64,000 bases of DNA from Mucilaginibacter cryoferens (lineage in GTDB: Bacteria > Bacteroidota > Bacteroidia > Sphingobacteriales > Sphingobacteriaceae), in the NCBI RefSeq assembly GCF_014205845.1, contig NZ_JACHCR010000031.1, positions 14,978 through 78,977 on the forward strand, in the 5' to 3' direction. The notes beneath the pieces are model-generated. The model was not told the DNA's origin. It was given only the letters and a program-made list of their open reading frames with translations, and did not search any database. The translations under genes and the position numbers were made by a program. Positions 11,481 to 48,734 of the stretch are shown here, in pieces (within the stretch, counting starts at the first letter, position 1; every line of letters starts with the position of its first letter).

Positions 11481-11545
11481 CAATTTGGGCAACCTTAATT
11501 TGCGGATATAATATTAAAAAATGTAATCTGCGCTGGCCTGCAACA

Positions 11546-11714
11546 TGGCCATTCCGGAGCCATTAACCACCTCGCTCCGGAATGGCAAAAATATCATTCC
11601 GAAACACTTTGATCATGCTAATACTCTTACGCAGAATCAATTTAGTGATACATCTTACACAAACACACGAACTTGGGGCACGGAATCAAATAGTCAAGCC
11701 TCCCGGAATATCCA
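11546..11714 (+). mobile_element. miniature element with IS21-like ends, copy 1
   Basis: This 169-bp non-coding element starts TGGCCATTCCGG and ends CCGGAATATCCA. Inside each end lie further TTCCG units about 22-23 bp apart, each followed by a (T)TGACCA-like box, the layout of transposase-binding repeats at IS21 family ends. A second copy, about 90% identical by eye and inverted, lies at 22004-22174. AACA on both sides (11542-11545 and 11715-11718) could be a 4-bp target duplication. No transposase is encoded, so it would depend on an IS21-type IstA in trans. An open frame across it (from 11545) is not a gene. Confidence 0.6.
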
Positions 11715-11749
11715 AACAAGCCCCATGCAGGCCATTGAAAAACGAGTTA

Positions 11750-12457
11750 TTAAAATAAAGACACATCCGTTTTCCTATTTTCAAAATCCACATCTTTCGC
11801 CTTTTTCTTGTTCCCGTAAACAGGCTCCGGCTCATTCAAATAATACGATTTGCTTTTGGTATCCATGAGATAAGCCTGCTGGCTAGCCGTTGGCGTCCAG
11901 GCCAAGGCAAAAACATTGATCTTAGCAAAAGGAAACTTCTTTAAAATGGCGCTGATGATGGCGCAGGATGTTACCCCTGTAGTTACTACATCATCGATGA
12001 TCAGTATCATTCGGCGATTCAGGTCTATACCATTACTATTGACTTCGTAAACATCAGACAGCATTTTTTGACGATCGGTCAATGTAAGCGACTTAACCGG
12101 CTTCGTAGTTTTCCTTTTATAGACTATTCGGGGCAGATATTCACAGCCAAAAGTTGCAGCAAGGCTGTTACCCAGACGATCCAAAGATCTCTCTCCTGAA
12201 GTATCCGCGACGAGTTCGTTACTGCTTAAGGCGCGGATAATTAGCAGGTCTCTGCTCATCTGGCGGGGTAACAGACTAATAATACTTTGAGAGATAAACC
12301 TCCTGATGGTATTTTCCTTATTGTTCTTAAATTCCAATACTTGTTTCCGGTCGTCGTCCCAGTATGATTGGGTGGAAAAGTAATAACAAAGGTGGTAAAG
12401 CTGAAAATATAATTGCCAATTGTATCGTAGCTTACGTTGCATGATTTCCATAATCAT
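11750..12457 (-). CDS. ComF-like phosphoribosyltransferase domain protein
   Basis: This is a 235-aa cytoplasmic protein. Residues about 148-165 (RRMILIIDDVVTTGVTS) form the PRPP-binding motif of type I phosphoribosyltransferases, and ALSSNELVADTSGERSLDRLG resembles the segment before it in ComF-type proteins. Other ComF features, such as an N-terminal zinc finger, are absent. ComF proteins are linked to DNA uptake in some bacteria, but this is a divergent relative and its reaction is unknown. It lies 36 bp inside the left miniature element and reads towards it, downstream of the rteC-like gene on the same strand. Confidence 0.7.
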   Translation of the reverse strand: MIMEIMQRKLRYNWQLYFQLYHLCYYFSTQSYWDDDRKQVLEFKNNKENTIRRFISQSIISLLPRQMSRDLLIIRALSSNELVADTSGERSLDRLGNSLAATFGCEYLPRIVYKRKTTKPVKSLTLTDRQKMLSDVYEVNSNGIDLNRRMILIIDDVVTTGVTSCAIISAILKKFPFAKINVFALAWTPTASQQAYLMDTKSKSYYLNEPEPVYGNKKKAKDVDFENRKTDVSLF

Positions 12458-12526
12458 TTATTTTTATTTTAACGATATCAGGTAATACCTGTGCCTATTC
12501 TTAAAAGTATTTATCATCGATAGATC

Positions 12527-13384
12527 CTAATTATTAAATGAATCGTGAATTTTTTGAATAATAACATCCCGCATATGGTCTATAAATTTGGTGATAGAAA
12601 GCCGTTTACGCCTGGATATGTCGATAAAATGGCGATGAGGACGGCCTATTTTCACACCCAGGCTTCCCTCGAACCACCTGACGATCTGTGCCAGGCTGGC
12701 GGTGCCATTATTTAACTGACCGGTATGATAAATACCATAGATCAATTCGACCAGGTTAATGATTTCACCTGTCCAGCGAAGTTCCCCGACACTATCTTTT
12801 ACATACTGGCCTGAAACATTGGAATCGGTTAATGATATAATTTTTTTCAATATATATACCTGAAACTTTTCTTCAGCGATAAACCTGGCGAAGGCATAAT
12901 CGGCCGGGGTTGAAAAGCCGGGGTCATTATAGGAAATCCCCGTTAACACCGAACTTTGAGAACCTACGATCTTTGTAAAATATATATAATCTAATTCGGT
13001 CATACCATCCCTATAATACTCATATAAAAAGCGATGCCGGCCCGCAAATCGGGAAGATACTTCGAGTTCTTTCTCGTAATAGCACCTGATAGTATCCAAT
13101 TGTGCCACCGGCTTATGGAGTTCAAGGTTTAATTGTTCGTCGAAAAAGATAACCAGGGCATAAAATTCAGGTTTGGCGTACTTAAAGAACTGTATCTCCT
13201 CCTCTTTATCAACGAAATCATAATGGAGAAAAGTTCCCCGAAAATCGTTTACCGCCACCCCGGCGACTTCCGACAGGCGTTTGATCTGCTCCTGAATTTT
13301 CAAGCCGGAATTTCGTATATCGAAAAAATCTTCTTCTAATTTGTCGTAAGACTTTCTAACGTATTCACTGATTGTCACATCCAT
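12527..13384 (-). CDS. rteC: RteC domain protein (mobile-element regulator family)
   Basis: This 285-aa protein resembles RteC, the regulator that induces excision genes in CTnDOT-type conjugative elements. The matching segments are RFLYEYYRDGMTELDYIYF, DYAFARFIAEEKFQVYIL, LRWTGEIINLVELIYGIYH, the wHTH-like LAQIVRWFEGSLGV and the C-terminal RKRLSITKFIDHM. The ATG at 13384 is preferred; an open frame extends 16 codons upstream with lysine-rich, signal-like residues that do not fit the family. No other conjugation or excision gene is seen nearby, so it may be a stranded regulator of a lost element. Family call fairly firm; role inferred. Confidence 0.78.
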   Translation of the reverse strand: MDVTISEYVRKSYDKLEEDFFDIRNSGLKIQEQIKRLSEVAGVAVNDFRGTFLHYDFVDKEEEIQFFKYAKPEFYALVIFFDEQLNLELHKPVAQLDTIRCYYEKELEVSSRFAGRHRFLYEYYRDGMTELDYIYFTKIVGSQSSVLTGISYNDPGFSTPADYAFARFIAEEKFQVYILKKIISLTDSNVSGQYVKDSVGELRWTGEIINLVELIYGIYHTGQLNNGTASLAQIVRWFEGSLGVKIGRPHRHFIDISRRKRLSITKFIDHMRDVIIQKIHDSFNN

Positions 13385-13582
13385 AAACGTTTTTATTTTT
13401 GTTATCAGGAATAATATTTTTCTGAATTTCAAGCAATTAGTATAAATATTTATTAAATATTAATCTTTTTTCATCTATCAGAAAACCATTATTCCTACTT
13501 ATTGTTTAACTATTAATTATTATCTGTTAATTCAAAGCTAATACCTGTAAAGTCCGCGCGGTTTGATTTCAATCAAAATCGT

Positions 13583-14182
13583 ATGGAAACTTTAAATGAG
13601 CTTTCGGACCTGGAAATGCTGTTCCAGATACTGACCTTTATCGCACCGCTCTCTGGCGCCCTGCGCAAGCGTTTTGAGGATTTTATTATTACCAAAACAT
13701 ACCCAAAAAAGCAGAAGCTTTTGCGCGAAGGCGAGATTTCACGGCAGATTTTTTTCATCCGTAAAGGATCAGCCAGGGCATTTTACCTGGACAGTGACGG
13801 GCGTGAACATACCACCTGGTTCATGGCCCCGAACGACCTGATGATTTCGGTTTACAGCTTTTATACGCAGCAGCCCGCAGCGGAAAACATCGAATTATTA
13901 GAAGATTCCATACTCTTGTCCATGACCTGGGACCAGTTACAAACCATATATGCTGAGTTCCCCGAATACAATTACCATGGCCGGCTGGTCACTGAAAAGT
14001 ACTATATTCTATCCGAAGAACGGGCTATCCTGTTACGGACTAAAAAACCGGCCGAGCGGTACCGGATGTTATTGCTGCAACACCCGAAAATCACCCAGCA
14101 AGCCTCCCTTGGCCAGATCGCTTCCTTTCTCGGAATAACCCAGGAAACCCTCAGCAGGATACGGTCCGGCAAAAGAATTTGA
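13583..14182 (+). CDS. Crp/Fnr family transcriptional regulator
   Basis: This 199-aa protein has a cyclic-nucleotide-binding beta-barrel (KKQKLLREGEISRQIFFIRK to about residue 95) and a C-terminal helix-turn-helix (ASLGQIASFLGITQETLSRI). The usual cAMP phosphate cassette with a conserved Arg is not evident, so the ligand is uncertain, as in many Bacteroidota Crp homologues. It is divergent from the rteC-like gene across 198 bp of AT-rich DNA and lies directly upstream of the lipoprotein gene, which starts 56 bp after its stop. It may regulate that pair. Confidence 0.88.
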   Translation: METLNELSDLEMLFQILTFIAPLSGALRKRFEDFIITKTYPKKQKLLREGEISRQIFFIRKGSARAFYLDSDGREHTTWFMAPNDLMISVYSFYTQQPAAENIELLEDSILLSMTWDQLQTIYAEFPEYNYHGRLVTEKYYILSEERAILLRTKKPAERYRMLLLQHPKITQQASLGQIASFLGITQETLSRIRSGKRI

Positions 14183-14238
14183 TCCAAATCAAAAATCACC
14201 ACATCCGAAAACCTCATTTTAACTTCACTCATGAGTCT

Positions 14239-15564
14239 ATGAAAAGAAAAAACATCATCATAACGATAGTATTTCTGTCGCTGATCGCCTGCAGGAAAGA
14301 AAAGGAGTCCGGCGAATCCCAAACCACGCCGGCATCCGGGCTTACCCTCGACCAGGTCAAAAACTGGTACCAAACTGACAGCAGCATTACTATAGACTGG
14401 CAGCAGGCCGAACACCATCAAACCAAAAATACGGCATACTGGCTCGTCGGTGTCAACGGCAGGCCCGGGTTCGGAAAATTGAAACTGGGTTATCGCAGGC
14501 TCGTTTTTTACAAAAACAATCACAATCAGATCACCGAACAGATCCTGGAGATCATCCCGGACGCCCTGTACCTGCAACGGGTAAAGACCGTGTCGGCAAC
14601 AGACTTTACCGGCCGGATATTCATTTTTGACCGCAAACACCTGTTCCTCGGTGGCCTCAGTTATAGGAACGGGCAACAAGCCGGCAGCATTAAACCGGCT
14701 TCACAGGACACTTCCCGGTTACAGGTCAACAACGCCGAGTTGGATTGCAGCTGGTTCGATAGTAACTATGTGGACAGCGACGGAAACGCGGTCATTTATT
14801 CAGAAAGTGTCTGTGACCCAATTTACTTGTCCGGTGGCAGTGACGGCTTCGGCGATGGTTCTACCGCAGGCTACAGCCCGGTTAGTTCCGGCGACGCGGC
14901 GCCTGTCGGTCATGGAGGTACAGGCGGAAGCTCCGGAAATTCCGCCCCGCCTCCGGCGGTTTCCAACCTGCCGGGTGAAAGCGGTCCCGGCATCAGCTCG
15001 AAGGATTTCATGAAGTGTTTCGGCAACATCCCCGACCAGGGAGCCACCATGAAGATCACTGTTTACGTTCAGGAACCCTGGCCCGGCACCACCTTCAACA
15101 TCGGACCCAACAGTGTCGGGCATACGGCTATCGGCCTTACCAAAATCAACGGCAGCCAGACCGTCACCCAGGTCGTCGGATTTTATCCCGACGCAACAGG
15201 TCTCGATAAAATGCACGCACCATCCAAAGTGGTCAATAACGGAGGCGACCTGGAATACAACGTCAGCATTACCTACACCGTAAGCGCGGATAACTTCCAG
15301 AAGATCAGAAATTATATCGCCGATCCGCCCGCAACCTATGACCTCACCAGTTTCAATTGCACCAGTTTTGTATACCAGGCCTGTCAATCAGGAAACATCA
15401 CTTTACCGGATCCCTACAGCACTTTCGGACCGGCCAGCCCACCGGGAGGACCTGCCGTAATGGCACCCGCCGGAATAGGCGACAGTATTTCAAACATGAA
15501 AGGACAATCAAACGTAAATACCAATGGGGGTATTACACCCAATAGCAAGGGCGCATGCCAATAA
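14239..15564 (+). CDS. lipoprotein with possible permuted papain-like C-terminal domain
   Basis: This 441-aa lipoprotein starts at the ATG giving MKRKNIIITIVF and lipobox LIAC (Cys18); a TTG 20 codons earlier is rejected. Residues 30-190 form an uncharacterised domain (LVGVNGRPGFGKLKLGYRR, IFIFDRKHLFLGGL). A low-complexity Gly/Ser/Pro linker spans about 197-255. The C-terminal part has His295 in SVGHTAIGL and Cys374 in SFNCTSFVYQAC. This His-before-Cys order is that of circularly permuted NlpC/P60-like (papain-fold) hydrolases, suggesting peptidase, amidase or acyl-transfer activity at the cell surface. Codon use looks more GC-rich than the PUL genes. A small membrane protein follows after 11 bp. 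The activity is an inference from two motifs. Confidence 0.6.
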   Translation: MKRKNIIITIVFLSLIACRKEKESGESQTTPASGLTLDQVKNWYQTDSSITIDWQQAEHHQTKNTAYWLVGVNGRPGFGKLKLGYRRLVFYKNNHNQITEQILEIIPDALYLQRVKTVSATDFTGRIFIFDRKHLFLGGLSYRNGQQAGSIKPASQDTSRLQVNNAELDCSWFDSNYVDSDGNAVIYSESVCDPIYLSGGSDGFGDGSTAGYSPVSSGDAAPVGHGGTGGSSGNSAPPPAVSNLPGESGPGISSKDFMKCFGNIPDQGATMKITVYVQEPWPGTTFNIGPNSVGHTAIGLTKINGSQTVTQVVGFYPDATGLDKMHAPSKVVNNGGDLEYNVSITYTVSADNFQKIRNYIADPPATYDLTSFNCTSFVYQACQSGNITLPDPYSTFGPASPPGGPAVMAPAGIGDSISNMKGQSNVNTNGGITPNSKGACQ

Positions 15565-15575
15565 AAAGACTAATC

Positions 15576-15902
15576 ATGAAAAAGTACATCATAATTATAT
15601 TTACACTGGTAGTTATCAGTAACCTGCCTTTTTTTAACTTTTTTTTACAGGAATCATATACCTATACCAATGAGGATAACACGTTTTCCTATATAGAAGA
15701 ACCTGGAAAAGGAACATCATTTTGGGGATGTCAACGGCAATTTGGACGATTTCTTTGCCTGCATCCGGAAAAAGAAATAGGCGACAACTTAATTTACCGC
15801 ACCTTCACTATCAAGCCCTGGCGGTTCTGGCTGTGGCGGGAAATGATCTTTCACAATGAGCGCTTTATGTTGCCTTATAAAGAACCAACTATCCGAAAAT
15901 AA
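15576..15902 (+). CDS. small membrane-anchored protein of unknown function
   Basis: This 108-aa protein begins MKKYIIIIFTLVVIS, a single N-terminal membrane segment or uncleaved signal, followed by a short soluble domain rich in aromatic residues (PWRFWLWREMIFHNERFM). The ATG at 15576 is chosen over one seven codons upstream that overlaps the previous gene. It sits 11 bp behind the lipoprotein gene and was probably translated from the same mRNA. I do not recognise the family. A partner or immunity-like role for the lipoprotein is possible but rests only on position and size. Confidence 0.5.
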   Translation: MKKYIIIIFTLVVISNLPFFNFFLQESYTYTNEDNTFSYIEEPGKGTSFWGCQRQFGRFLCLHPEKEIGDNLIYRTFTIKPWRFWLWREMIFHNERFMLPYKEPTIRK

Positions 15903-16015
15903 AAAAGCTAATTCCCGATTTTCGTTCCTTATCGGTAGCAAAATCAAGGAGTTCTGGGTATTATAGCGGACAATGAAGAGGTCGAACAATATTGCGGGTC
16001 GATGGTTAACTGGGA

Positions 16016-16879
16016 ATGGAAAAAGAAATTTTAGTAGCGGGGAGTACCGGTGATATGGGTGGCCGGATTATCAAGGCGTTGCTGAAGAACGAAGCGAGTA
16101 TTCGTGCGCTTGTTCGTTCCGGCGCTAACCCGGTAGTAGTGGATATGCTACGGAGTTCCGGTGTCAACATCGTGGAAGCCGACCTTACTGACCGAAAGGC
16201 GTTGATCGCCGCATGTAACGGGGTGAGCTGCGTAGTTTCGGCGCTGGCGGGATTGCGGGAGGTAATTGTTGATACCCAAAGTTTATTAATGGAAGCGGCG
16301 ATCGCTGCAGGCGTACCGCGTTTTATCCCGTCTGATTATTCTACTGACTTTACCCAATTGCCGGAAGGCGAGAACCGAAATTTCGATCTCCGTAAGGAAT
16401 TCATGCAGAATATCGACGGAAGCAACATCAAAGCGACATCTATTTTCAACGGCGCCTTTGCCGAACTGCTGAACTACAATATCCCATTCCTTGATCATAA
16501 AAACAAAACTGTCGGCTATTGGGAAAAGCCGGACTGGAAAGTTGACTTTACCAGCATGAATGATGTGGCCGCATTTACAGCAATGGCGGCGATGGACGAT
16601 AATGCGCCGAGGTATTTGCGTATCGCCAGTTTCCAGGTGAGCGCGCAGGAAATGGCTGCGGCCAGTGGCTATGAATTGAAAAACAGAGGCACACTGGCAG
16701 AACTTGACACCTATAACAATAGTGAGCGGGCAGCACATCCGGAGGGGGAAAATGAGTTGTATGCGAAGTGGCAGCAAAGCCAGTATATGCACTCCATGTT
16801 CAGTGCACGCAATACTGTTTTAGACAATGAACACTATTCCGGCCTGGTGTGGAGCACATTACAGGAATACCTGCGATAA
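16016..16879 (+). CDS. NmrA-like NAD(P)-binding reductase
   Basis: This 287-aa cytoplasmic protein has an N-terminal Rossmann motif (ILVAGSTGDMGGRI) and an overall NmrA/isoflavone-reductase-like sequence: NIVEADLTDRKALIAAC, GVPRFIPSDYSTDF, FNGAFAELLNY and VDFTSMNDVAAFTAMAA. Such atypical short-chain dehydrogenases reduce small carbonyl or phenolic compounds or sense NADP redox state. The Lys near the active site of true isoflavone reductases is not obvious, so the activity is uncertain. It is on the same strand as the Ku group, whose first small gene starts 38 bp downstream. Confidence 0.85.
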   Translation: MEKEILVAGSTGDMGGRIIKALLKNEASIRALVRSGANPVVVDMLRSSGVNIVEADLTDRKALIAACNGVSCVVSALAGLREVIVDTQSLLMEAAIAAGVPRFIPSDYSTDFTQLPEGENRNFDLRKEFMQNIDGSNIKATSIFNGAFAELLNYNIPFLDHKNKTVGYWEKPDWKVDFTSMNDVAAFTAMAAMDDNAPRYLRIASFQVSAQEMAAASGYELKNRGTLAELDTYNNSERAAHPEGENELYAKWQQSQYMHSMFSARNTVLDNEHYSGLVWSTLQEYLR

Positions 16880-16917
16880 GCCGTAAAAATTGGTATCGAA
16901 TTTGTTTAAATCATCCT

Positions 16918-17190
16918 ATGGAAAATTATCCCATTACCATCAGTTTAGATAAAGCAGTACATCATTTCGAGGTGGGCGAATATCCCCATCATGAAGATGA
17001 CCGTTGTAAGTATAAAGTATTTGAAGGCGGCGTTTACGTGGCCAGCTTTGAGCCGGATGCCCAGGAGTTTCTGCACGTTTGCCAGAATCCCGGTGGCGTA
17101 GATGAAGAGGTGCTGCATTTACTGGCCGACCAAATTGAAACGCATCATCCGCAGGGTATGAATGACAACATTAGAAAACTAAAATTATGA
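16918..17190 (+). CDS. small conserved protein upstream of ku
   Basis: This 90-aa soluble protein begins MENYPITISLDKAVHHFEV. An open frame from 16849 overlaps the reductase gene and is not preferred. It is acidic and His-rich (HHFEVGEYPHHEDD, ETHHPQG). The stop overlaps the ku start in ATGA (17187-17190), so the two are translationally coupled. No known domain is recognised. Coupling suggests a function with Ku, but none can be assigned. Confidence 0.6.
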   Translation: MENYPITISLDKAVHHFEVGEYPHHEDDRCKYKVFEGGVYVASFEPDAQEFLHVCQNPGGVDEEVLHLLADQIETHHPQGMNDNIRKLKL

Positions 17191-17957
17191 GATCGATTTG
17201 GAATGGTTCGATAGGATTTGGCCTCGTTAGCATTCCTATCAAATTGTATTCTGCGGTTCAAACGTCATCATTGGATTTGGATATGCTGGATAGCCGCGAC
17301 CACGCGCACATTAAGTTCCAGCGGGTGAACGAGAACACGAAGAAGGAAGTACCCTATGATAAGATCGTTAAAGGTTATAAATACAATGATGATTATGTAA
17401 TCGTGGAGGATGCCGATTTTGAAGCGGCGGCACCAGAAAAAAGCAAGGTGATCGAGATCGAGAATTTTGTGGACATCACGTCAGTGAACCCGATGTTTTA
17501 TGAAACGTCGTATTACACGGAGCCGGAAACAAAAAACAATAAGGCCTATGCGTTGCTTTTGGCGGCTTTGAAAAAATCGGGTAAGGCAGGATTAGCAAGG
17601 TTTGTGCTCCGCAGTACGGAGAGCATGTGTATTGTCCACCCGGTGGATAAGGCTATTGTAGTCACACGTATTCGTTTTGTACAGCAGATCCGCGACCAGG
17701 ATGAATTAAAACTGGATGATAAGGTAGAAGTAAGCAAAAAAGAACTGGACATGGGCCTTGCCCTGATCAATCAATATGCGGAAGAACTGGACCTGTCGAA
17801 GTATAAAGATGAATATCATACCGAACTATTAAAACTGATCGAAGCTAAAGCAAAGGGCAACCGTCCGACAATTAAGAAACTGAAGCCTAAAGCGGCTAAA
17901 GGAGATGAGCTGTACGACCAGCTGATGAACAGTTTACAAGTTAAAAAAGGTGCGTGA
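17187..17957 (+). CDS. ku: Ku, non-homologous DNA end-joining protein
   Basis: This 256-aa protein is a bacterial Ku that forms a ring-shaped homodimer on double-strand breaks and recruits LigD. The N-terminus (RSIWNGSIGFGLVSIPIKLY) is the hallmark of the family. The core beta-barrel follows with VPYDKIVKGYKYNDDYVIVE, FVDITSVNPMFYETSYY and GLARFVLRSTESMCIVHP. A short Lys-rich C-terminal tail (RPTIKKLKPKAAKGDELYDQLMN) matches the LigD-contacting region. It is coupled to the gene before it (ATGA), and the broken gene after it overlaps its stop (TGATG). LigD is encoded convergently 0.9 kb away. Confidence 0.96.
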   Translation: MRSIWNGSIGFGLVSIPIKLYSAVQTSSLDLDMLDSRDHAHIKFQRVNENTKKEVPYDKIVKGYKYNDDYVIVEDADFEAAAPEKSKVIEIENFVDITSVNPMFYETSYYTEPETKNNKAYALLLAALKKSGKAGLARFVLRSTESMCIVHPVDKAIVVTRIRFVQQIRDQDELKLDDKVEVSKKELDMGLALINQYAEELDLSKYKDEYHTELLKLIEAKAKGNRPTIKKLKPKAAKGDELYDQLMNSLQVKKGA

Positions 17958-18447
17958 TGTATAAAATCGCAAAAATACTCGTATCCGGCGTTGCCGGCAC
18001 CACAGTAATGACCATTTCCAGCTACTTGATGTCGCTGACAGCGGATGAAAATTCCAGGGACCGGAACATTTGGCTACGATGATCGAAAGGCTGGCACCCG
18101 GGCTTTCCAAACAAGCAAAAACGATAGCTGGCTGGGGCGCACATTTCGCGATGGGACTGGTACTTGCAGCGTTTTAAGTCGAGCTATGGGAAACTAAAAA
18201 GATCAAACACACCATAAGAAACGGCATCATACTGGGGGCGATTAGCGGTGTATTGGGCTACCTGATCTGGAAGGCCACATTTAAAGCACATCCTTTGCCG
18301 CCCTGGGTTGATTTTAGTAAGTATTATCTCCAGCGGATTCCCGCCCATGTAGTATTTGCTATTGGGGCAACGATCGCATACCGGCTCCTGCCGGAACCCA
18401 GCAATAAAAATGAAGATATTAACAAAACATATGAAAAATCCCTTTGA
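17957..18447 (+). pseudogene. broken small integral membrane protein gene
   Basis: The start codon overlaps the ku stop. Frame 1 encodes MYKIAKILVSGVAGTTVMTI to TGA near 18083. The homologous sequence continues in the +2 frame from about 18055 (GPEHLATMIERLAPGLSKQA), is stopped by TAA near 18178 after GLVLAAF, and then resumes in the same frame (VELWETKKIKHTIRNGIILG) to 18447. A frameshift plus one nonsense change thus split a ~160-aa multi-pass protein. It resembles DUF1440/YagU-type membrane proteins only by pattern. As the flanking genes are intact, this seems a true lesion, although sequencing error in a homopolymer cannot be ruled out. Confidence 0.65.
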
Positions 18448-18670
18448 AAAAGAAAACAATAGCGGCCTGATCGCCGCTATCATCATCGGTGGCGTAACCG
18501 CCGCCGCGCTTGCTTACCTGTTTTTAACGGAAGACGGCGAAGAAACACTGGCAACACTTAAACATAAGGTCAAAGATATAGCCAAGGATATCGCTTCCGG
18601 TGTGGTCAGCGACAAAACAGGGATCTCGAAAAAGACGATTAAAAAGGCTGCGGATGTCATTCTAAAATAA
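18431..18670 (+). CDS. YtxH-like single-pass membrane protein
   Basis: This 79-aa protein starts MKNPFEKENNSG and has one membrane segment (LIAAIIIGGVTAAALAYLF) followed by an amphipathic helix (LATLKHKVKDIAKDIASGV), the layout of YtxH-type stress proteins. Its start overlaps the end of the broken membrane gene by 17 bp. An open frame from 18356 is not used because it reads through that gene. It is one of several small genes trailing ku; its function is unknown. Confidence 0.6.
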   Translation: MKNPFEKENNSGLIAAIIIGGVTAAALAYLFLTEDGEETLATLKHKVKDIAKDIASGVVSDKTGISKKTIKKAADVILK

Positions 18671-18676
18671 TGAGCA

Positions 18677-18850
18677 ATGGGAAAGCAACATCAAACTTTT
18701 CAGAGCGAGCCAGCAGAGGTGGCCGTAACGAAAAAAGTACCGAAAATACAGCAGCCCGCCGATCCTACGAAGATATGGTGGGTAAGGTGGTACGAATGGT
18801 CAATCACCAGCCGTTCGCATTTTAACACCTGGTCGATGAAATTTATTTAA
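18677..18850 (+). CDS. 57-aa hypothetical protein overlapping the 3' end of ligD
   Basis: This short frame (MGKQHQTFQSEPAEVAV to the end HFNTWSMKFI) starts 6 bp after the YtxH-like gene and ends 8 bp inside the convergent ligD gene. Trp- and basic-rich residues (IWWVRWYEWSITSRSH) look non-random and the spacing fits an operon. No family is recognised. It is a likely but unproven gene. Confidence 0.45.
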   Translation: MGKQHQTFQSEPAEVAVTKKVPKIQQPADPTKIWWVRWYEWSITSRSHFNTWSMKFI

Positions 18851-21680
18851 AAACAGCCTGGGCTTTTTTGATCGTTTTCTCCAGATCAATTCCGGCGCCT
18901 AAAACCCCTTTGAACAGGTCGCCAGTTTCTTTCAAACGGTCGAATGCGTTATTGATATGGAAATGCTGGATGGTCAAACCCGGTTTAACCTCATCCCAGG
19001 TTAGTGGCATAGATACAGTTGCGCCGGGCTTTGGCCTTAGGGAATACGGCCCGGCGATAGTAGCCCCGGGACGGTTCTGTAAAAAGTCGAGGTACATTTT
19101 CCCTTTTCGTGCAGCGATACTGCGTTCCAGGCTGGTAAAGTCCGGGATTTGTTTGTGCACCAGTTTCACAATAATATTAGCGAACATCTGGGACTGATCA
19201 TAAGTGTATTTACCCGCTAATGGAATATAGATGTGCATCCCGGTTGAGCCGGATGTTTTGGGAAAGCTGAGCACATCTATAGCATCTAAAATATCTTTGG
19301 TAATGCGCGCAGCTTCGACCACCTGGTCATAGGTGTGTTTATCCGGATCGAGGTCGATCACGCAATAGTCAGGATTATCCGGCGTTTCCACGCGGCTGAA
19401 CCAGGGGTTCATTTCAATACAGCCTAAGGAGACCATCCACAGTAAACTGTCTGCCCCCATAGCCACTAGATATTCTTTATCTTCACCTTCGCTGTTGGTG
19501 TACGGCATTGTTTTCACCCATTCCGGCGCTTTATCTTTCACATCTTTCTGGTAAAAGCTCGGGCCATGAATACCATTCGGAAAACGGTTCAGCGACATTG
19601 GCCGGTCTTTCAGGTACGGCATGATATAAGGCGTCACCTGATAATAATAATTGAAGATATCCCGTTTAGTGAGCCGCTCCTCTGGCCAGTAAATTTTACT
19701 GAGATGAGTAAACTTTAACTCATGCCCGTTAACCCGCCTTTCCTGAGTTTCATCCTTAGGATTAAGTAAAGTTCTTCTTTCCTGTTTAGTGGGCCTTACA
19801 GATGAATGTAAAGTATTTCCTGTATCTTTATGGGTACTCAAGCTATCATTTGCCGACATCCTGGCATCTGTTTTTTGAGTGATGCTCACCAGTTCATTTC
19901 GTTTAGTTTTTGCCATTTTCCTGCTATCCTGGAAGTGCTCAATTGAGCTCCCTTTATGTCTGTTTCCGATTTCCTGTTCCTGTGCGCTAGTTAGCGGCAC
20001 TTCGCGAACTACATCACTGGCGCTCTTGTCATTGCGAAAGCCGAGGAAGGTTGCAGGTTTACGGATACGACCCGCCTTTGTCCAGTCGGCGAATTCAAAA
20101 TTGGCTACCAGCTCGGGTTTTACCCAATGCAGTTTAGCGCCGTACGTGTCCAGTACTTTATTGACAAAGGGGGATTGATCTGTTTCCAGTTCTTTTAACT
20201 GACGCAGGATACTGAGCATTTCCTTATCTTTATAACCGCTTCCCGACCTGCCGATCCATTCCAGTTCTCCGTTATGATAGGCGCCGAAAAGCAATGTGCG
20301 AAAAGAACGCGCGTTGTTCGACTCGGCCCAGCCGCCGATCACAAATTCCTGCCTTTTATGAGTCGGGATCTTCAGCCAGTCATTATTCCTGGCGCCTTCC
20401 TGATAGGTACTGTCTTTTCTTTTTGCTACAATACCTTCCAGCCCCAGCCTCAGGCAATGATCATATAACGCCTTGCCATCATCGAAAGATGCACTGAAGC
20501 GCAGCATTTCCTTTCCGTCTAGCAGTTGCTTTAAAATTTCTTTTCTTTCTGTTAGTTTAAGCATGGTCAGGTCATAACCTGCCAGCCACGGAACGTCGAA
20601 CAGGCAATAGTTAATCGGTGGATGATCACCATTATAGTTTTGCATTGCCTCAAAGTCGGGTTTACCTTCCTGGTTAAAGGCCACGACTTCACCGTCCAGC
20701 ACAGCATTATACCCGAGTTTTTTTAAGGCTGCGACTATCGGCGGGTATTTTTTGGTATAGTTCAGGGAACTGCGTGAATCCAGGCGGACCTTACCGTCTT
20801 CAACCATCGAAGTGATCCGGTAACCATCCCATTTGAGTTCGTATAAGTAGGCGTCATCCTTAATAACTTCCCTGGTTAATGTACAAAGCATTGGCGAAAT
20901 AGATTTTGGCATTTCGCTGCGAATGCCTTTCTGCTTAACCATCTCCATGATATCTATAGGTGCCTGGCTCCTGCGCTGTGGTTTTTCCGCATTAGGGTCA
21001 TTTGGCCGGATTGCCGGTTTCTTATTTTTCGCCTTTTCTTCATCCAGTTCCTTATCCGGCACCACATCTTCCTTTTGACCATGATGCCAGACCTTTTCAC
21101 TGCTTTTTTCCATCGTTTCAATGTTTTTTCCGGAAAGCACAGATTTGTCCTTTTTCGTAATCTCTGCGCCTGTGGCAAACTCGTCGTTATGCTTGATCAT
21201 CAGCCAGCCGTTTTCACCCATGCCGTGGGTTTTCACCATTGCAAATTCCCCATTCAGTTTTTCGCCGTGTAATTTGATCTTTAATTGCCCGGAAGCTAAT
21301 TGCTTTAAGAGATGTTTTTCCTGGGCCTTCTTGCCTTTGATCGGCTCGACAGGTTCATAGGTACCTTCGTCCCAGACGATCACCGTTCCACCGCCATATT
21401 CGCCTTTAGGAATGATGCCTTCAAAGTTGAGGTAGTCAAAAGGGTGATCTTCGACCATCATGGCCAGGTGTTTGACCTTGGGGTCAAGCGATGGGCCTTT
21501 GGGAACAGCCCAGCTTTTTAACACGCCGTCCATTTCCAGCCGGAAATCATAATGCAGGCGGGAGGCGTCATGCTTTTGCACCACGAAGACCAGGTGATCC
21601 TTATCCTTGCTTGCGCCGGTCTTCGGTTCCGCGGTCTTCTTAAAATCGCGCTTTTGATTATACTCCTTTAGCTTTCCCAT
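18843..21680 (-). CDS. ligD: LigD, multifunctional DNA repair ligase
   Basis: This protein of about 945 aa carries all three LigD domains. The N-terminal 3'-phosphoesterase has HDASRLHYDFRLEMDG, EDHPFDYLNFEGIIP and GEYGGGTVIVWD (residues 35-165). The central ATP-dependent ligase has the catalytic Lys in ELKWDGYR (near 285), DGEVVAF, GIVAKRKDS and the OB-fold GGWAESNNARSFRTLL. The C-terminal polymerase/primase has FTHLSKIYWPEERLTKRDI, the metal-binding DLDPD near 780 and TSGSTGMHIYIPL. The PE-Lig-Pol order is as in Pseudomonas. A Ser/Thr/Lys-rich linker (590-655) joins Lig and Pol. The ATG giving MGKLKEYNQKRDF is preferred over one five codons upstream. It works with Ku to join broken DNA ends. 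Confidence 0.96.
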   Translation of the reverse strand: MGKLKEYNQKRDFKKTAEPKTGASKDKDHLVFVVQKHDASRLHYDFRLEMDGVLKSWAVPKGPSLDPKVKHLAMMVEDHPFDYLNFEGIIPKGEYGGGTVIVWDEGTYEPVEPIKGKKAQEKHLLKQLASGQLKIKLHGEKLNGEFAMVKTHGMGENGWLMIKHNDEFATGAEITKKDKSVLSGKNIETMEKSSEKVWHHGQKEDVVPDKELDEEKAKNKKPAIRPNDPNAEKPQRRSQAPIDIMEMVKQKGIRSEMPKSISPMLCTLTREVIKDDAYLYELKWDGYRITSMVEDGKVRLDSRSSLNYTKKYPPIVAALKKLGYNAVLDGEVVAFNQEGKPDFEAMQNYNGDHPPINYCLFDVPWLAGYDLTMLKLTERKEILKQLLDGKEMLRFSASFDDGKALYDHCLRLGLEGIVAKRKDSTYQEGARNNDWLKIPTHKRQEFVIGGWAESNNARSFRTLLFGAYHNGELEWIGRSGSGYKDKEMLSILRQLKELETDQSPFVNKVLDTYGAKLHWVKPELVANFEFADWTKAGRIRKPATFLGFRNDKSASDVVREVPLTSAQEQEIGNRHKGSSIEHFQDSRKMAKTKRNELVSITQKTDARMSANDSLSTHKDTGNTLHSSVRPTKQERRTLLNPKDETQERRVNGHELKFTHLSKIYWPEERLTKRDIFNYYYQVTPYIMPYLKDRPMSLNRFPNGIHGPSFYQKDVKDKAPEWVKTMPYTNSEGEDKEYLVAMGADSLLWMVSLGCIEMNPWFSRVETPDNPDYCVIDLDPDKHTYDQVVEAARITKDILDAIDVLSFPKTSGSTGMHIYIPLAGKYTYDQSQMFANIIVKLVHKQIPDFTSLERSIAARKGKMYLDFLQNRPGATIAGPYSLRPKPGATVSMPLTWDEVKPGLTIQHFHINNAFDRLKETGDLFKGVLGAGIDLEKTIKKAQAVFK

Positions 21681-21695
21681 AGACAACGAAGCCAC

Positions 21696-22003
21696 TTGCG
21701 GGGCTCTGGTTATTTTTTATCTTCCAGTTTTTTTCCTACTGTAGCGCGTTTATTACTGCCGGTTGATTTTTTGGCGGCTTCCACGTTTTTCAAGGTAGTC
21801 CTTTCTTTTTTTGCATACTTAATTCATGTGGCTATTCCGATACAAAACTTCTTTCCACTTTTGCGCCTCTTGTTGCCATAGTTTATTTTATTTTTTAGAT
21901 GTCCATTCATAACAAGTTACCGGGGGCTTGGTTTTAACTTGTAATTGATTTAATTACCTGGTGAAATAACTACAAACACGGTCGGGTTGATTTTGTAGTA
22001 AGG
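21696..22003. other. gene-poor spacer upstream of ligD
   Basis: No intact gene is seen. The minus strand has a short frame MATRGAKVERSFVSE (near 21880 down to 21833) that stops. A shifted Lys-rich frame (KNVEAAKKSTGSNKRAT) then runs down to about 21713. Together they may be a decayed small basic protein gene, but the evidence is thin. Confidence 0.3.
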
Positions 22004-22174
22004 TGGATATTCCGGGAGGCTTGACCATGTGATTCCGTGCCCCAAGTTCATGTATTTGTGTAAGATGTATCACTAAATTGATTCTGCGTGTACGAGTATT
22101 AGCATGATCAAAGTGTTTCGGAATGATATTTTTGCTATTCCGGAACGAGGTGGTCAATGGCTCCGGAATGTCCA
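22004..22174 (-). mobile_element. miniature element with IS21-like ends, copy 2 (inverted)
   Basis: This 171-bp segment is the reverse complement of the element at 11546-11714, with scattered substitutions and a short indel near the CTAATACTC box. Its ends are TGGACATTCCGG and CCGGAATATCCA, each with inner TTCCG units about 22-23 bp apart. No target duplication is evident here. It bounds the Ku/LigD block on the right. Confidence 0.6.
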
Positions 22175-22333: not shown

Positions 22334-22720
22334 TCAAAAACGCGTTCCACCGAAGTATATTTTTTGAGGAAAAATATACATAATCAGCTGCCTTTTACCC
22401 ACCAAATCATATTTTTTATACAACAAAAGCAGCCCTGAAACGCAGGAATCGGCATTTTTAAGCAATCGCTCTATCTTGACGGTCCCCGAAACTACACTTT
22501 CAAGCTGCACTTCGCACTGTCTGATTTTTTGATCGCAATCCGATTTAAATTTTCGGTATTCATTCGCTTCTATTTCACCTGAATAATATTTATTTCTTGC
22601 ATTGGTCAACTTGAGGTTGACTGTCTGTATCTGAGCGATAATATCTTTGCGCTTACCGGCCACCGTTTTATTGGTATTCCTTTTGCTATATTCAGCTATG
22701 CCCGAGATATAACCAAGCCT
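22334..22720 (-). pseudogene. C-terminal remnant of a large serine recombinase
   Basis: The frame begins right at the stop of the hybrid regulator gene and has no proper start; the nearest is a GTG at 22663. It encodes a coiled-coil (KRKDIIAQIQTVNLKLTNAR, YYSGEIEANEYRKFKSD) and then LVGKRQLIMYIFPQKIYFGG. This is the usual C-terminus of Bacteroidota site-specific serine recombinases, after the zinc-ribbon. The catalytic resolvase domain and DNA-binding regions are missing. It is read as the tail of an integrase left by a rearrangement at the edge of the accessory block. Confidence 0.65.
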
Positions 22721-40260: not shown

Positions 40261-41718
40261 ATGAAGCGCACCTGTCTGATTTTTGGCGTCCTCATTTTTA
40301 CCCTGACGGGGTATACTGGTTATTCACAGCAACTGAAAAAAAGGCAAATCGACAGCCTGCGCAAGGTAGCTGAGTTGTCAAAGGACCTGCAGGAGAGCGT
40401 CAGGATGTTGACTATAGCCTGCGATGCCTCAAAGAAAATCCACGACGAAGACGGATTAGTCGAGAGTCTGTTACTTATCGCTTCAAAATACAGTAATGTC
40501 AAACAATTTGAAAACACCTTTAAATATGCGGTGGCTGCAGAAAGTGTCGCTGAAAAAACAGGCAACCCGGTTTACCAAGTGAAAATCCTATTCCTGAAAG
40601 GAATCAGTTATAACAATTTAGGATTTTACAGCGACGCCACGGAAGTATTAAATCGTGCCATTCCCGTTGCGCAGGCTATCGCTGACGTAGATCAAAGGCA
40701 TTTATTTTTGGGTAACATTTATAATGCTTTGGCCCAATATAATGAGCGTTCGAAATCGATCTCCCTTTATAAAAAGTGTTTTTCGGAATATATGCAAATG
40801 AGCAAGGCTCCAAAAGGCTCGGGCTGGCTGCAGCAGAGCGCGAACAACCTGGGAACCGCGTATTACTATTCAGAGAAATATGACTCAGCAGGGTATTATT
40901 TCACCAAAGCACTACACTTTGCTATCGCCCAAAAGGATACCATAATCTTGGCGAATGTCTACGATAATTTAGGCTCTCTTAGCTACCAGAAAAAGCAATA
41001 TGTGGCTGCTAAAAAATATTTTCAAACGGCTTACTTTTTAAATACTATTATAAAGGACTCCTACCTGGAAAATGATATTTGTACATTCCTGGCAAAAATA
41101 CATACTGCGTTGAACGAAAATGAAAAAGCCAAGAAATATTTTGACCGGGCGATCTATCTGAAGGACAGCCTTTCCGCTGCCGAGAAACGTAGTGTTAAAA
41201 CCCCGCTCAATTATATCGTTAAATACAAAGAGCAGCAACTCGCAAAAAGCCAGAGCAGCGATCTCCGAATCATATTCATTACCGGCATGTTACTTATCGT
41301 CGCATTATCCGCTACATTTTTTTACCGCTATATGTTAAAAAAGGAGAGCAGAATCAGTGAGGAAAAAGTAAACGATCTGATCGAAAAAATGGAACTTAAT
41401 GCGGAAGGGCAATCTCCTTCCAGGATAGAAGAATTAAAGGGGATCGTACAACTAGCGGTTAACAACAACCCTGCCTTCTTTACAAAATACAATGAATTTG
41501 ATCCTTTGTTTAGCAAAAAACTACTTGCTGAAGCACCTACTCTGACAGCGATCGAGCTTGAGTTCTGCCTATTTTTCAAGTTAAGTTTCGAAACCAAAGA
41601 GATCGCACGTTATAACAGGCTCTCCGTTCGTGCTGTCGAGGGGAAAAAATACAGGATCAGAAAGAAACTTAGTATCCCCTCCAACCAGGATATTAGTATC
41701 TGGATGAACCACATCTGA
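40261..41718 (+). CDS. TPR sensor protein with membrane helix and C-terminal HTH
   Basis: This 485-aa protein has a signal or first membrane anchor (LIFGVLIFTLTGYTGYSQ), tetratricopeptide repeats at about 40-310 (AYYYSEKYDSAGYYFTKAL, NLGSLSYQKKQYVAAKKYF) and a membrane helix at about 338-358. The cytoplasmic part carries a LuxR/sigma-4-like helix-turn-helix (LTAIELEFCLFF, FETKEIARYNRLSVRAVEGK). It would sense outside the membrane through TPRs and bind DNA inside, as in known Bacteroidota TPR-LuxR proteins. The C-terminal 120 residues closely match the paralogue at 47238-48734. The target is unknown. Confidence 0.82.
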   Translation: MKRTCLIFGVLIFTLTGYTGYSQQLKKRQIDSLRKVAELSKDLQESVRMLTIACDASKKIHDEDGLVESLLLIASKYSNVKQFENTFKYAVAAESVAEKTGNPVYQVKILFLKGISYNNLGFYSDATEVLNRAIPVAQAIADVDQRHLFLGNIYNALAQYNERSKSISLYKKCFSEYMQMSKAPKGSGWLQQSANNLGTAYYYSEKYDSAGYYFTKALHFAIAQKDTIILANVYDNLGSLSYQKKQYVAAKKYFQTAYFLNTIIKDSYLENDICTFLAKIHTALNENEKAKKYFDRAIYLKDSLSAAEKRSVKTPLNYIVKYKEQQLAKSQSSDLRIIFITGMLLIVALSATFFYRYMLKKESRISEEKVNDLIEKMELNAEGQSPSRIEELKGIVQLAVNNNPAFFTKYNEFDPLFSKKLLAEAPTLTAIELEFCLFFKLSFETKEIARYNRLSVRAVEGKKYRIRKKLSIPSNQDISIWMNHI

Positions 41719-44949: not shown

Positions 44950-45052
44950 TTGTTTTTGCAAACAGCGGCCGCGTAACTCATTATTTTTGCGGCTCGCTCA
45001 GCTAACCTGGAATAGGCTTGTAAGCGTAAACGAAGCAATCAAAAATTAAATA

Positions 45053-46003
45053 ATGAATAAACATTTATTTACCGGTATCCTGTTACTTCTTTCCATATCA
45101 ATTCAGGCACAAACAGCGCGATCTGGGATAAACAACCCATCACCGACTGTTACATTGGATGTTACGGGAAATCCAACAAGCACGACTTATCTAGATGGGA
45201 TAATGGCTCCAAGAGTAACAGGGGTACTGTTAAGGGCGAAAACATATACCGCCACTCAAAATAGTGCGATTGTCTATGTAACTACCGCAGATCCTGCACC
45301 TGCAGGGCAAACTATAAATGTTACTTCGGTCGGTTACTACTATTTTAGCGGACCAACATTAAGATGGGTAAGGTTTGTGGGTGGTTCTGGGCCGGCCTCT
45401 ACAATAGTAGGGCAAATTTTAACTGCTGATGCGAATGGGCTTGGGGCATGGCAAACACTGGCATTAACTTCTGTAGCAGGTGTAACACCAGGCCCAACTG
45501 TAAGTTTTACCAAGTACGGAACCGGGACCCCTCCCAACACTATTCTATTTACAAACGGTTATATTATACTGCCTCCGGGTAAATGGTTAGTTGCTTTTGG
45601 TACCAAAGCAGGGATTGGGAATAATACAGGATCTATCCCCAGGATTCTAAATACTGATGCTTCATTATGGCTTACCTTGTATTTAAGCGATGATGCTACT
45701 ACAGGAGGTAATACAGCAGATTATGTAACAGCAGATTCCGGCCCCAGGGGGTCTGCCGGTGTTTTGGGAAGAGGTTCCAGTAAAACTTATGTTTCCGGCT
45801 ATGAAGTTGTTAATAATACCGGCACCGCCAGCAAAAAATATTACTTATGGGCTTATCAGGAGCAGGATATTAACCCTAATATAACAGCCAGCAGTAAAAC
45901 ACAATACGATAATGGCAGCGGTACATCGGTTGATGCATTTTGGGTAAATGTAATGGATAATACTTACCAGGAAAGATACTTTTTTGCTATTCCTATTCAA
46001 TAG
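45053..46003 (+). CDS. secreted protein, first of a tandem duplicate pair
   Basis: This 316-aa exported protein has a signal peptide (LLLLSISIQAQ), then TVTLDVTGNPTSTTYLDGI, MAPRVTGVLLRAKTYTA and GQTINVTSVGYYYFSGPT. The last three form an N-terminal module common in Bacteroidota surface and fibre-like proteins. A C-terminal beta-rich domain follows (YIILPPGKWLVAFGTKAGIG, SLWLTLYLSDDATTGGNT, YLWAYQEQDINPN) and ends in RYFFAIPIQ. The next gene encodes a protein closely similar over its full length. The function is not known; a surface or matrix protein is likely. Confidence 0.7.
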   Translation: MNKHLFTGILLLLSISIQAQTARSGINNPSPTVTLDVTGNPTSTTYLDGIMAPRVTGVLLRAKTYTATQNSAIVYVTTADPAPAGQTINVTSVGYYYFSGPTLRWVRFVGGSGPASTIVGQILTADANGLGAWQTLALTSVAGVTPGPTVSFTKYGTGTPPNTILFTNGYIILPPGKWLVAFGTKAGIGNNTGSIPRILNTDASLWLTLYLSDDATTGGNTADYVTADSGPRGSAGVLGRGSSKTYVSGYEVVNNTGTASKKYYLWAYQEQDINPNITASSKTQYDNGSGTSVDAFWVNVMDNTYQERYFFAIPIQ

Positions 46004-46072
46004 CTTTCTTATAAGTTATTGGATCAATTCACCAATCATTCCGTTTATACCCGTAAAAAATCAAAATTAAAC

Positions 46073-47035
46073 ATGACTAAACATCTATTTTCAGTTGTAC
46101 TATTCCTTGTTTCTATTTCAGTTCAGGCACAAACAACACTATCGGGCATAAACAATTCGGCACCAACTGTTACATTGGATGTTACAGGTAACCCGACAGC
46201 CACGGATTATCTTGATGGGATAATGGCCCCAAGAATTACAGGAGCACAGCTGAAGTTGAAAACATACACCGTAGCTGAAAATAGTGCTATTGTTTATGTA
46301 AATACCGCAGATCCTGCACCAGCAGGGCAAACTATAAATGTTACTGCGCCCGGTTATTATTATTTTGACGGGCCAACATTAAGCTGGGTAAGGTTTGCGG
46401 GGGGGGCTGGTGCAGCGGCTATTACAGGGCAAGTTTTAACATCTGATGCGAATGGGTTGGGAGTATGGAAAGCCCTGGGAGTAAGCTCTATACCAGGTAC
46501 CTTTCCAGTTACGCCTGTAAATTTCACGTCTTACGGACCCGCACAAATTGCCGGAGGCCCTCCCGACACTATTTTAAATACAACAGCCTATATTACATTA
46601 CCTCCAGGTAAATGGTTAGTTGCTTTTGGCACAACAGCCGGGATTGGGTATAATGGATTTTACCCTAGGATGTTAAATACTGATGCTTCATTATGGTTTA
46701 GCTTATATTTAAGCGATGATGCTACTATAGGAGGTAATACGGTCGATTACATCACTGCAGATGCAGGCCCCAGAGGATCTGGAGGCATTTTGGGGCGAGG
46801 TACCAATAAAACTTATGTTTCCGGCTCTGAAGCCATTAATAATAGTAGCGGTGGCAGCAAAAAATATTATTTGTGGGCTTATCAGCAGCAGAATATTAAT
46901 TCTAGTATACCAACCAGTAGTAAAACACAGTACGACGATGCATCAACTGCACACAATCAGGTTAATGCATATTGGATTGGTATAATGGGAGTTGGCTATT
47001 GGGAAAGATACTTTTTTGCTATTCCTATTCAATAG
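46073..47035 (+). CDS. secreted protein, second of the tandem pair
   Basis: This 320-aa exported protein (signal FLVSISVQAQ) matches the preceding gene product along its length: TVTLDVTGNPTATDYLDGI, LPPGKWLVAFGTTAGIGYN, SLWFSLYLSDDATIGGN, ERYFFAIPIQ. It has small insertions (such as AQIAGGPPD). The ATG at 46073 gives the same start as its partner; an open frame from 46019 is ignored. A 69-bp gap separates the genes. The pair arose by tandem duplication. Function unknown. Confidence 0.7.
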   Translation: MTKHLFSVVLFLVSISVQAQTTLSGINNSAPTVTLDVTGNPTATDYLDGIMAPRITGAQLKLKTYTVAENSAIVYVNTADPAPAGQTINVTAPGYYYFDGPTLSWVRFAGGAGAAAITGQVLTSDANGLGVWKALGVSSIPGTFPVTPVNFTSYGPAQIAGGPPDTILNTTAYITLPPGKWLVAFGTTAGIGYNGFYPRMLNTDASLWFSLYLSDDATIGGNTVDYITADAGPRGSGGILGRGTNKTYVSGSEAINNSSGGSKKYYLWAYQQQNINSSIPTSSKTQYDDASTAHNQVNAYWIGIMGVGYWERYFFAIPIQ

Positions 47036-47237: not shown

Positions 47238-48734
47238 TCAGATATGATTCATCCAAATATTAATATCCTGGTTAGAGGGAATGTTGAGCTTCTTTCTTAT
47301 TCTGTATTTCTTTCCTTCCACCGCCCGAACCGAAACCTTGGTATAACGTGCGATCTCCTTGGTTTCAAAGCCTAGTTTGCAGTGCAAACAAAATTCAAGT
47401 TCTATCGCGGTAAGGTTTGGGGCTAGGCTGAGTAATTTTTTGCTGAAATCCGGATCAAATTCATTGTGTTTCACAAAGAAGGCAGGATCGTTATTAACCG
47501 CCAGCTGCAGAATAATCTTCAACTCTTCAATTGCAGCCGGAGAACGCATATCCTCGTTCACTTCCAGTTTTGCTAACAATTCAGTTACCTTCTCCTTACT
47601 GCGCTTTATTTCGCTTTTTAAGCGACGACGGTAAAAAAATATAGCACTGAATATTAATAAAAGAAAAACAGGAATCGTTAATATCAAACGACGGTACCGG
47701 GATTCACTCGCAGATAAACTTTTCTGCCCGTTGTTGACAATATATTCAAGTGGTGTTTTAATCGCAGCTTTATCAGCCTGGGCGAGACTGTCACCCAAAT
47801 ATTCGCTTTTTTGAAAATAAATCAAGGCAATCTTCGGCTTGTTCAAAGCGGTGTATACTTTTGCCAGGCCGGCATAAGCTCCCTTCAACCCTTTGGTATA
47901 TTTAATTTGAGTCGCTGCAGTTTCGGCGGCCTGATAATAAAGCGCCGACTGCCCATATTTCTTTACCGAATAATAAAAGTTACCTGCATGAGAATTAGCA
48001 ACCCATAACGCATAATATTTCTGATATTTATACCTATCCGTACATCTGGAAGCAAAAAGAAGCGCTTTATTTGTATAGAATGCAGCAGTATCATATTGTT
48101 TGCGTAAGGTAAACAGGTTTCCTCTATTCGAGGTTATTATAACATAAACCCATAAGTATTTATGGCTACTTTGCAGTTGCCGGGCTTCAAGATAACTCCT
48201 GTTGCTCCAGAATTCTCTTGCTTTAATATTACCCAAATGCCGATAGTTAATGCCTATGTTTGAATAAGCAATTGCAAGGTAATAATGCCTGTCCTCTTCG
48301 TTATTTATACTTTCCGCAATAAGGACCGCGCTATTTAGCGTATGTTCCGCATCCTTGTAAAATCCCAGGCTTTCATAACATTGCCCCTTAAGTATCTTGA
48401 TATTAAAATCCAGGACCGGATCTTTCGTTTTTACAGCGACGCTTTCTGCCTGAATGATAAATTTAAAAGCCTTGTCATATTGCCCGGCGTCATAGCTTTT
48501 TTTGGAATACAACGTAAGGCCTTTGATAATGCCTTGCTCATAGTTTATCGCTTTTGACGCATTAAAAGCTGTAGTTAATTGTTGAATGTCAGATTTTAGA
48601 CCAATTAAATGATTGGCTTCATCAAAGATGCTGTCGATCTGTTGTTTATTGTATTGTCCGTAACTTTGGCTGCAAAGCAAAGCTAACAAGCCAAATAACA
48701 GAAATTTGCCAAACCGTTTCATTGCCCTTTTCAA
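47238..48734 (-). CDS. TPR sensor protein with membrane helix and C-terminal HTH, paralogue
   Basis: This 498-aa protein has the same plan as the one at 40261-41718. It has a signal (LLFGLLALLCSQSYGQ), TPRs with many aromatic pairs (ALYYQAAETAATQIKYTKGL), a membrane helix (LILTIPVFLLLIFSAIFFY) and a cytoplasmic HTH. The last ~110 residues match the paralogue closely (LQLAVNNDPAFFVKHNEFDP, SVRAVEGKKYRIRKKLNIPS), while the TPR half has diverged. It faces the tandem secreted genes tail to tail. It probably senses a different signal but binds similar DNA; its targets are unknown. Confidence 0.82.
   Translation of the reverse strand: MKRAMKRFGKFLLFGLLALLCSQSYGQYNKQQIDSIFDEANHLIGLKSDIQQLTTAFNASKAINYEQGIIKGLTLYSKKSYDAGQYDKAFKFIIQAESVAVKTKDPVLDFNIKILKGQCYESLGFYKDAEHTLNSAVLIAESINNEEDRHYYLAIAYSNIGINYRHLGNIKAREFWSNRSYLEARQLQSSHKYLWVYVIITSNRGNLFTLRKQYDTAAFYTNKALLFASRCTDRYKYQKYYALWVANSHAGNFYYSVKKYGQSALYYQAAETAATQIKYTKGLKGAYAGLAKVYTALNKPKIALIYFQKSEYLGDSLAQADKAAIKTPLEYIVNNGQKSLSASESRYRRLILTIPVFLLLIFSAIFFYRRRLKSEIKRSKEKVTELLAKLEVNEDMRSPAAIEELKIILQLAVNNDPAFFVKHNEFDPDFSKKLLSLAPNLTAIELEFCLHCKLGFETKEIARYTKVSVRAVEGKKYRIRKKLNIPSNQDINIWMNHI

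Follow-up and report, generated by a model that had tools for sequence, protein, structure and literature searches.

ERIC, RUP and Correia elements are dispersed intergenic repeats of near-constant length. The element described here resembles them in these respects, but both of its ends show a readable link to the IS21 family. MITEs with a defined relationship to an insertion sequence include MITEPsy1 of Pseudomonas syringae, which is 100 bp long, is related to ISPsy2 of the IS5 family and was seen to move (PMC3189936), and MITEPye1 of Paracoccus yeei, which belongs with the IS1182 family (PMC11578231). In the parts of these reports used here, both resemble the present element in being gene-less and in having terminal inverted repeats like those of a resident IS. 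They differ in that they have direct repeats, whereas the present element has IS21-type site arrays and is genus-wide and old. Publications that link a MITE to an IS family name, in the portions available, another family and not IS21. Titles and abstracts (a scope that leaves most subscription journals and ISfinder outside) contained no MITE tied to the IS21 family and no Mucilaginibacter MITEs. MITEs are an already known kind of element; a family based on IS21 is apparently undescribed.

IS21 elements are about 2.6 kb long and encode istA-istB. According to the sections consulted of a study of IS5376, the model for the family, an IS21 end is built of direct repeats, at least two in number, and every repeat contains two conserved boxes that are bound by two HTH domains (PMC10122671). 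Two full repeats are required, and a random end that has only the terminal CA fails (PMC10122671). The in vitro system produces a 5-bp target duplication according to the same sections (PMC10122671); such a duplication is nearly absent from the element described below. Within these limits of the source, the element shares with the family the terminal TGG/CCA with its 3' CA, the repeated bipartite sites, their offsets and the left/right polarity. It differs in being gene-less and only 171 bp long. It is an IS21 derivative and not a member of the family, as 171 bp hold no istA or istB.

The window, a stretch of 64,000 bp of contig 31 of the Mucilaginibacter cryoferens genome (G000), contains two complete copies of the element, A and B, in inverted orientation. 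Features are listed with window coordinates and strand.

11542..11545 and again 11715-11718, no strand: AACA, possible 4-bp target duplication at A (1 of 81 copies, 0.17 expected)
11546..11714, +: complete copy A of the element, 169 bp; left end 11546, right end 11714
11551..11569, +: A left site L1, ATTCCG-6-TTAACCA, element positions 6-24
11596..11615, +: A left site L3, ATTCCG-7-TTGATCA, element positions 51-70
11681..11686, -: A right site R2, first box ATTCCG, 29 bases from the right terminus
11691..11709, -: R1, right site of A, ATTCCG-6-TTGACTA, reading from the terminus at 11714 into the element
11715..22003, no strand: DNA between A and B, listed apart from the element; genes PRTase-like, RteC, CRP-like, NmrA-like, Ku and LigD
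22004..22174, -: complete copy B of the element, 171 bp; left end 22174, right end 22004
22009..22027, +: R1, right site of B, ATTCCG-6-TTGACCA, reading from the terminus at 22004 into the element
22151..22169, -: L1, left site of B, ATTCCG-6-TTGACCA

The coordinates and end sequences of both copies had been given in an earlier sequence-only reading and proved correct to the base; its estimate by eye of about 90% identity becomes 94% by blast. A starts with TGG (11546) and ends with CCA (11714). It differs from B by 9 substitutions and one 2-bp gap, being 2 bp shorter in the middle, and the longest exact match between them is 42 bp. Self-comparison of the 64 kb returned two inverted arms of 86 bp, 94-95% identical, which goes beyond chance, and the distance from A to B is 10,289 bp. 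An ORF of 107 aa at A (11545-11868) extends beyond the element, and no ORF of at least 90 aa is listed at B. The array of TTCCG units reported by the same reading is present: in the left end of B the units stand at 7, 30 and 52 (element positions), and in the right end they stand 7 and 30 bases from the terminus. In A, its second unit is CTCCG, site L2 (element position 29) being degenerate (GCTCCG).

A and B are very probably gene-less MITEs of IS21 type, made up of an IS21-family left end and right end and probably moved in trans by resident IstA/IstB. This reading draws on the further copies, the IS21-like ends and their polarity, the resident IS21 elements and a common flank bias. The left end would hold three transposase sites, of which the second is partly degenerate, and the right end two clear sites and a degenerate third position. 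The two ends would then nearly abut, separated by some 50 bp that contain no gene. The IstA of a resident IS21 would bind the bipartite sites, an IstA tetramer would pair both ends and cut after the terminal CA, and the element would be inserted in trans with the ATPase IstB. The family would then be a non-autonomous IS21 derivative that probably goes back to one ancestor of about 171 bp. If confirmed, these elements would provide natural short substrates for a well-studied AAA+-dependent transposase. They would also account for a class of Mucilaginibacter intergenic repeats and give markers of rearrangement.

The BLASTN comparison of the element with its own genome and with relatives, which the sequence-only reading had proposed, revealed further copies in both. 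In the own genome, nine element places were found by blast and 10 sites match the left-end pattern. A sequence-only model built from 39 copies gave 23 matches there, which reduce to 21 places, whole or partial, once two that are reverse readings of listed copies are removed. This model was run on 18 chosen genomes, among them 13 known positives and two known negatives. The own-genome copies have differing flanks. Across 149 genomes, at least 50 (own included) match the element: at least 48 of the 90 of the genus and two of the 59 outside it, where the matches are weak (best E values 4.8e-5 and 7.9e-4). The figure of 48 is a lower bound, since the best five candidates per genome were scored, and one genome negative on that basis (G089) was positive in the model search. 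The exact terminal 26-mer had 12 matches among 84,980 named species genomes, all 12 in Mucilaginibacter, and A had no match in the plasmid and phage collections. The element thus represents a dispersed MITE family of the genus Mucilaginibacter. The family is old there; it has undergone some amplification in this species, and some copies, at the least, are inherited at fixed sites. Among the matches listed, flanks common to different copies (1e-15) were confined to the group G013/G017/G031 and to a PRTase duplication. At site L051, the element is present in four species (G013, G017, G031 and G074), which indicates that some copies were inherited vertically.

The anatomy of the family was taken from 329 profile matches, many of which were readings of both strands or overlapping loci; 206 were full-length, and these gave 104 distinct complete copies. 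Complete copies range from 154 to 173 bp, 100 of them lying between 163 and 173 bp (171 bp in 37, 172 bp in 27), a statistic that leans to full length because the collecting definition excluded shortened and interrupted copies. As a check against the length bias of the 171-bp query, facing end motifs were paired by pattern only in 12 genomes. At least 138 typed end sites were used; G046 is absent and G071 possibly incomplete, and 11 own-genome contigs with a single site were excluded. Among the matches listed, 36 neighbouring pairs lie within 6 kb, and 33 of these span 163-173 bp, the others 149, 998 and 5,707 bp. The 998-bp pair in G010 comes from an element split by other DNA; this DNA carries a frame of 220 aa that presumably encodes an IS110-like transposase. 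The 5,707-bp pair in G002 joins an IS21 end with an element end and is taken as chance.

Mean pairwise identity is highest in the terminal stretches (0.79 at positions 1-26, 0.77 at 147-171) and at 50-72 (0.77), and it falls to 0.66 at 123-146, 0.60 at 27-49 and 0.54 at 73-122. The middle of the element drifts, the ends and the inner left site are held, yet the length hardly changes. As the middle is still homologous across copies, there was probably one common ancestor of about 171 bp. With at most one mismatch, ATTCCG occurs in the left end at position 6 (96 of 104 copies), 29 (63) and 51 (65, with 17 more at 52), and TTGACCA at 18 (88) and 64 (65, with 17 more at 65). In the right end, ATTCCG occurs at 6 (81) and 29 (75) and TTGACCA at 18 (79). 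The median box count over all offsets is 0; only the inner boxes (29, 51 and 64) are an independent count, since the terminal ones belonged to the collecting pattern. The spacer is 6 bases in the terminal sites and 7 in the inner left site L3, as in the IS21 elements of the genus. Judged by its letters, the element would on paper carry the two full repeats that the published work calls for.

Intact IS21 elements of the genus have their boxes at 6, 29-30 and 51-53. The element's box positions are as in these istA-istB elements, so the alternative that its ends have no match to IS21 termini does not hold for the IS21s of this genus. In G002, nine 2,620-bp IS21 copies with istA and istB are present; the 516-aa istA product scores 244 bits against the NCBIfam IS21 transposase (cut-off 160) and istB scores 264 bits (cut-off 200). 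In the own genome, an IstB fragment lies at the edge of contig 6, followed by GGTCAACTTCCCCGGAATATCCA, and the IS21 terminus TGGATATTCCGGGGAAGTTGACCA is found at 14 contig ends. Seven of these are of right type and seven of left type, from which at least seven copies of a collapsed own-genome IS21 can be deduced; its body is absent from the assembly. An IstA-family match at contig 42:6592 was rejected because it is below cut-off; judged from its sequence, it is presumably an IS3-type transposase. When the element ends were compared with those of two IS21s, like ends (left-left plus right-right) agreed better than crossed ends: over 72 bp this holds for 98 of the 104 copies, and over 50 bp for 87 of them (2 ties each). 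Such left/right polarity is what internal deletion of an IS21 would leave.

The ends could instead belong to a transposase outside IS21 that also uses multi-site ends, for instance a machine like that of Tn7 or Mu. According to the parts of the IS5376 study used here, the transposase site is likewise repeated in the ends of Tn7 and Mu (PMC10122671), and a near-identical IS21 parent was not found: in the comparison with the two IS21s, the best identity over 72 bp is 40 for B and 39 for A. In 20,000 random 72-mers of the window, at most 36 identities were reached, a value that the left end of A also does not exceed. Unlike the element, the own-genome IS21 and that at L193 have no clean box at 29 in their ends. 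A single-site IS21 weight matrix, trained on mixed 6- and 7-base spacers, did not rise above shuffled windows, its best site (in B) scoring 15.5 and the shuffled maxima having a mean of 14.1 and a highest value of 21.8. The case for the IS21 link rests on spacing, repetition and polarity. However, the box sequences and positions are those of istA/istB elements of the same genus, and polarity and flank preference are common to the element and the IS21s, which leaves another transposase with little probability. Between genomes, the two do not always occur together: elements without an IS21 over cut-off are found in G061, G013, G071, G042 and G083, and G034 has 12 IS21 copies over cut-off and no element. 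Such a mismatch can be expected for an old family; it is no proof of partnership.

The insertion sites of the IS21-type MITE were compared with those of intact IS21s. Among 81 of the 104 copies with clean ends and flanks, target duplications are present in two, of 4 bp in one (A) and of 6 bp in the other. The AACA repeat pointed out earlier is real on both sides of A; it is weak as stand-alone evidence, because it is the sole 4-bp match among the 81 copies and 0.17 are expected from re-paired flanks. In 40 intact IS21 copies from eight genomes (G002, G034, G068, G074, G010, G088, G046 and G079), repeats of variable length, 5-8 bp, flank only six. A missing duplication is therefore no feature by which the element could be told from IS21 in this genus, even if duplications are still rarer in the element. 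That 34 of 40 intact IS21 copies in the genus are without one matters to annotators who rely on this sign. ISPve1, an IS21 of Paracoccus, often inserts with adjacent deletions of 0.5-4.5 kb, its simple insertions having 8-bp repeats, according to the part of the report seen (PMC3281130). By analogy, loss of target repeats through insertion-linked deletion may be one way to explain their rarity, age being another. Flank preference in the element correlates with that of the 40 IS21 copies over five outward positions (r = 0.71), and a control displaced by 10 bp gave r = 0.02. Outward positions 2-4 are rich in T, T and A/T in both, and a second biased stretch at positions 10-15 of the element flanks is faint for IS21. 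For site L051, none of the 90 genus genomes had both flanks without the element among the best three candidates per genome, so no filled/empty pair is available there.

Taken together, the genus-wide copies, the box positions, the polarity in 98 of 104 copies and the flank bias support well the earlier proposal of a non-autonomous element driven by an IS21-type transposase, and from them we infer mobilisation in trans. It is also conceivable, though unlikely, that the near-fixed length is imposed by the machine beyond what descent would give, with the two ends, of three sites on the left and two or three on the right, being synapsed by an intertwined IstA tetramer, or being closed into a minicircle, and a gene-less element achieving this well only at about 171 bp. 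In that case, nature would have supplied the IS21 transpososome with a minimal substrate in this family, and the flank bias, with its second phase about ten bases outward, would report target presentation by IstB.

The sequence-only reading had also raised the idea that A and B are a recombination substrate able to invert the 10.3 kb between them; a related proposal makes them borders of a composite transposon that moves the block. The copies are inverted and 94% identical, and IS21 ends could in principle act pairwise across a block. The exact match of 42 bp permits homologous recombination, but no evidence was seen that it has occurred. Against mobility of the block, the genome comparison suggested by that reading showed that the block is not kept together as a unit. 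Eight relatives were compared at 11 Ku loci (11 of 45 matches examined). In these, the small gene before Ku is kept in seven, a LigD match in two and a CRP-like match in one; PRTase or RteC neighbours occur in none, and no element lies within about 7.5-9.7 kb of Ku. As the Ku neighbourhood is not conserved in relatives, the block is a local mosaic. The PRTase-like gene in it scores below the Pfam cut-off. Moreover, the outer flanks of A and B have no common duplication and, if AACA at A is a true duplication, the flanks of A are still in their original linkage. A mobile or inverting block is thus very improbable; the 10.3 kb between A and B would be due to independent insertions or to a rearrangement after insertion, and not to their carrying the block.

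A conserved regulatory DNA or RNA (terminator, riboswitch or small RNA) that is not mobile would fit the absence of copies inside an ORF of at least 100 aa (0 of 94, 10 more lying too near an end; gene-breaking copies would escape this count), the better folding of single copies than of shuffles (mean z -3.0, 26 of 104 copies; -1.4 without the terminal repeats) and a near-invariant ACACAA box that the two IS21 boxes do not explain. It is nonetheless extremely improbable: the concern, voiced beforehand, that the repeats are a conserved RNA or gene is countered by the lack of an Rfam match at A or B, by a consensus fold of 39 copies in which none of 12 pairs has a compensatory change (covariation term -0.11), by consensus folding of all 104 copies, which gave no structure, and by gene contexts that are mixed (tandem 44, convergent 27, divergent 17; n=88) with no common gene seen.

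The ACACAA box is at element positions about 113-118, or about 54-59 bp from the right end. At about the same distance from their right end, IS21 elements have a TTAGCTG-like stretch.

A cluster of three elements or fragments, within about 450 bp (contig 31:12425-12875, L055), immediately precedes the window; their contig coordinates are as follows.

contig 31:12425-12536, +: packed element or fragment 1
contig 31:12621-12789, -: packed element or fragment 2
contig 31:12789-12875, +: packed element or fragment 3

In the same region, a 487-bp direct repeat, 96.7% identical, connects window 11714-12198 with contig 31:13033-13519 (L055) and contains part of a PRTase-like gene. Between its two copies lie about 13 kb whose genes, by their sequence, are SusC/SusD-like, and its left edge coincides with the right end of A. 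The position of this edge suggests that the element end or the PRTase segment took part in a rearrangement near A.

Beside B, a frame at window 22334-22663 (-) is related to a large serine recombinase (L003:3-1184), matching its C-terminal part with 29% identity across 102 aa. This recombinase adjoins a contig-7 element copy that is 95% identical to B. An association of serine recombinases with the element is not general, as it is found at four of 97 element loci (B, both own contig-7 copies and one G026 copy). Further serine recombinase matches were seen in IS21-end loci on own-genome contigs 12 and 28.

Other repeats in the window were also observed. At 45043-46940, a tandem duplication has a step of about 1.02 kb, with pieces 71-81% identical, and 41311-41718 and 47238-47645 form an inverted 408-bp pair (71%). 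At 63686-64000, overlapping repeats have start spacings of 36, 36, 63 and 81 bases, all multiples of 9, and are possibly a collagen-like Gly-X-Y coding repeat that runs beyond the window.
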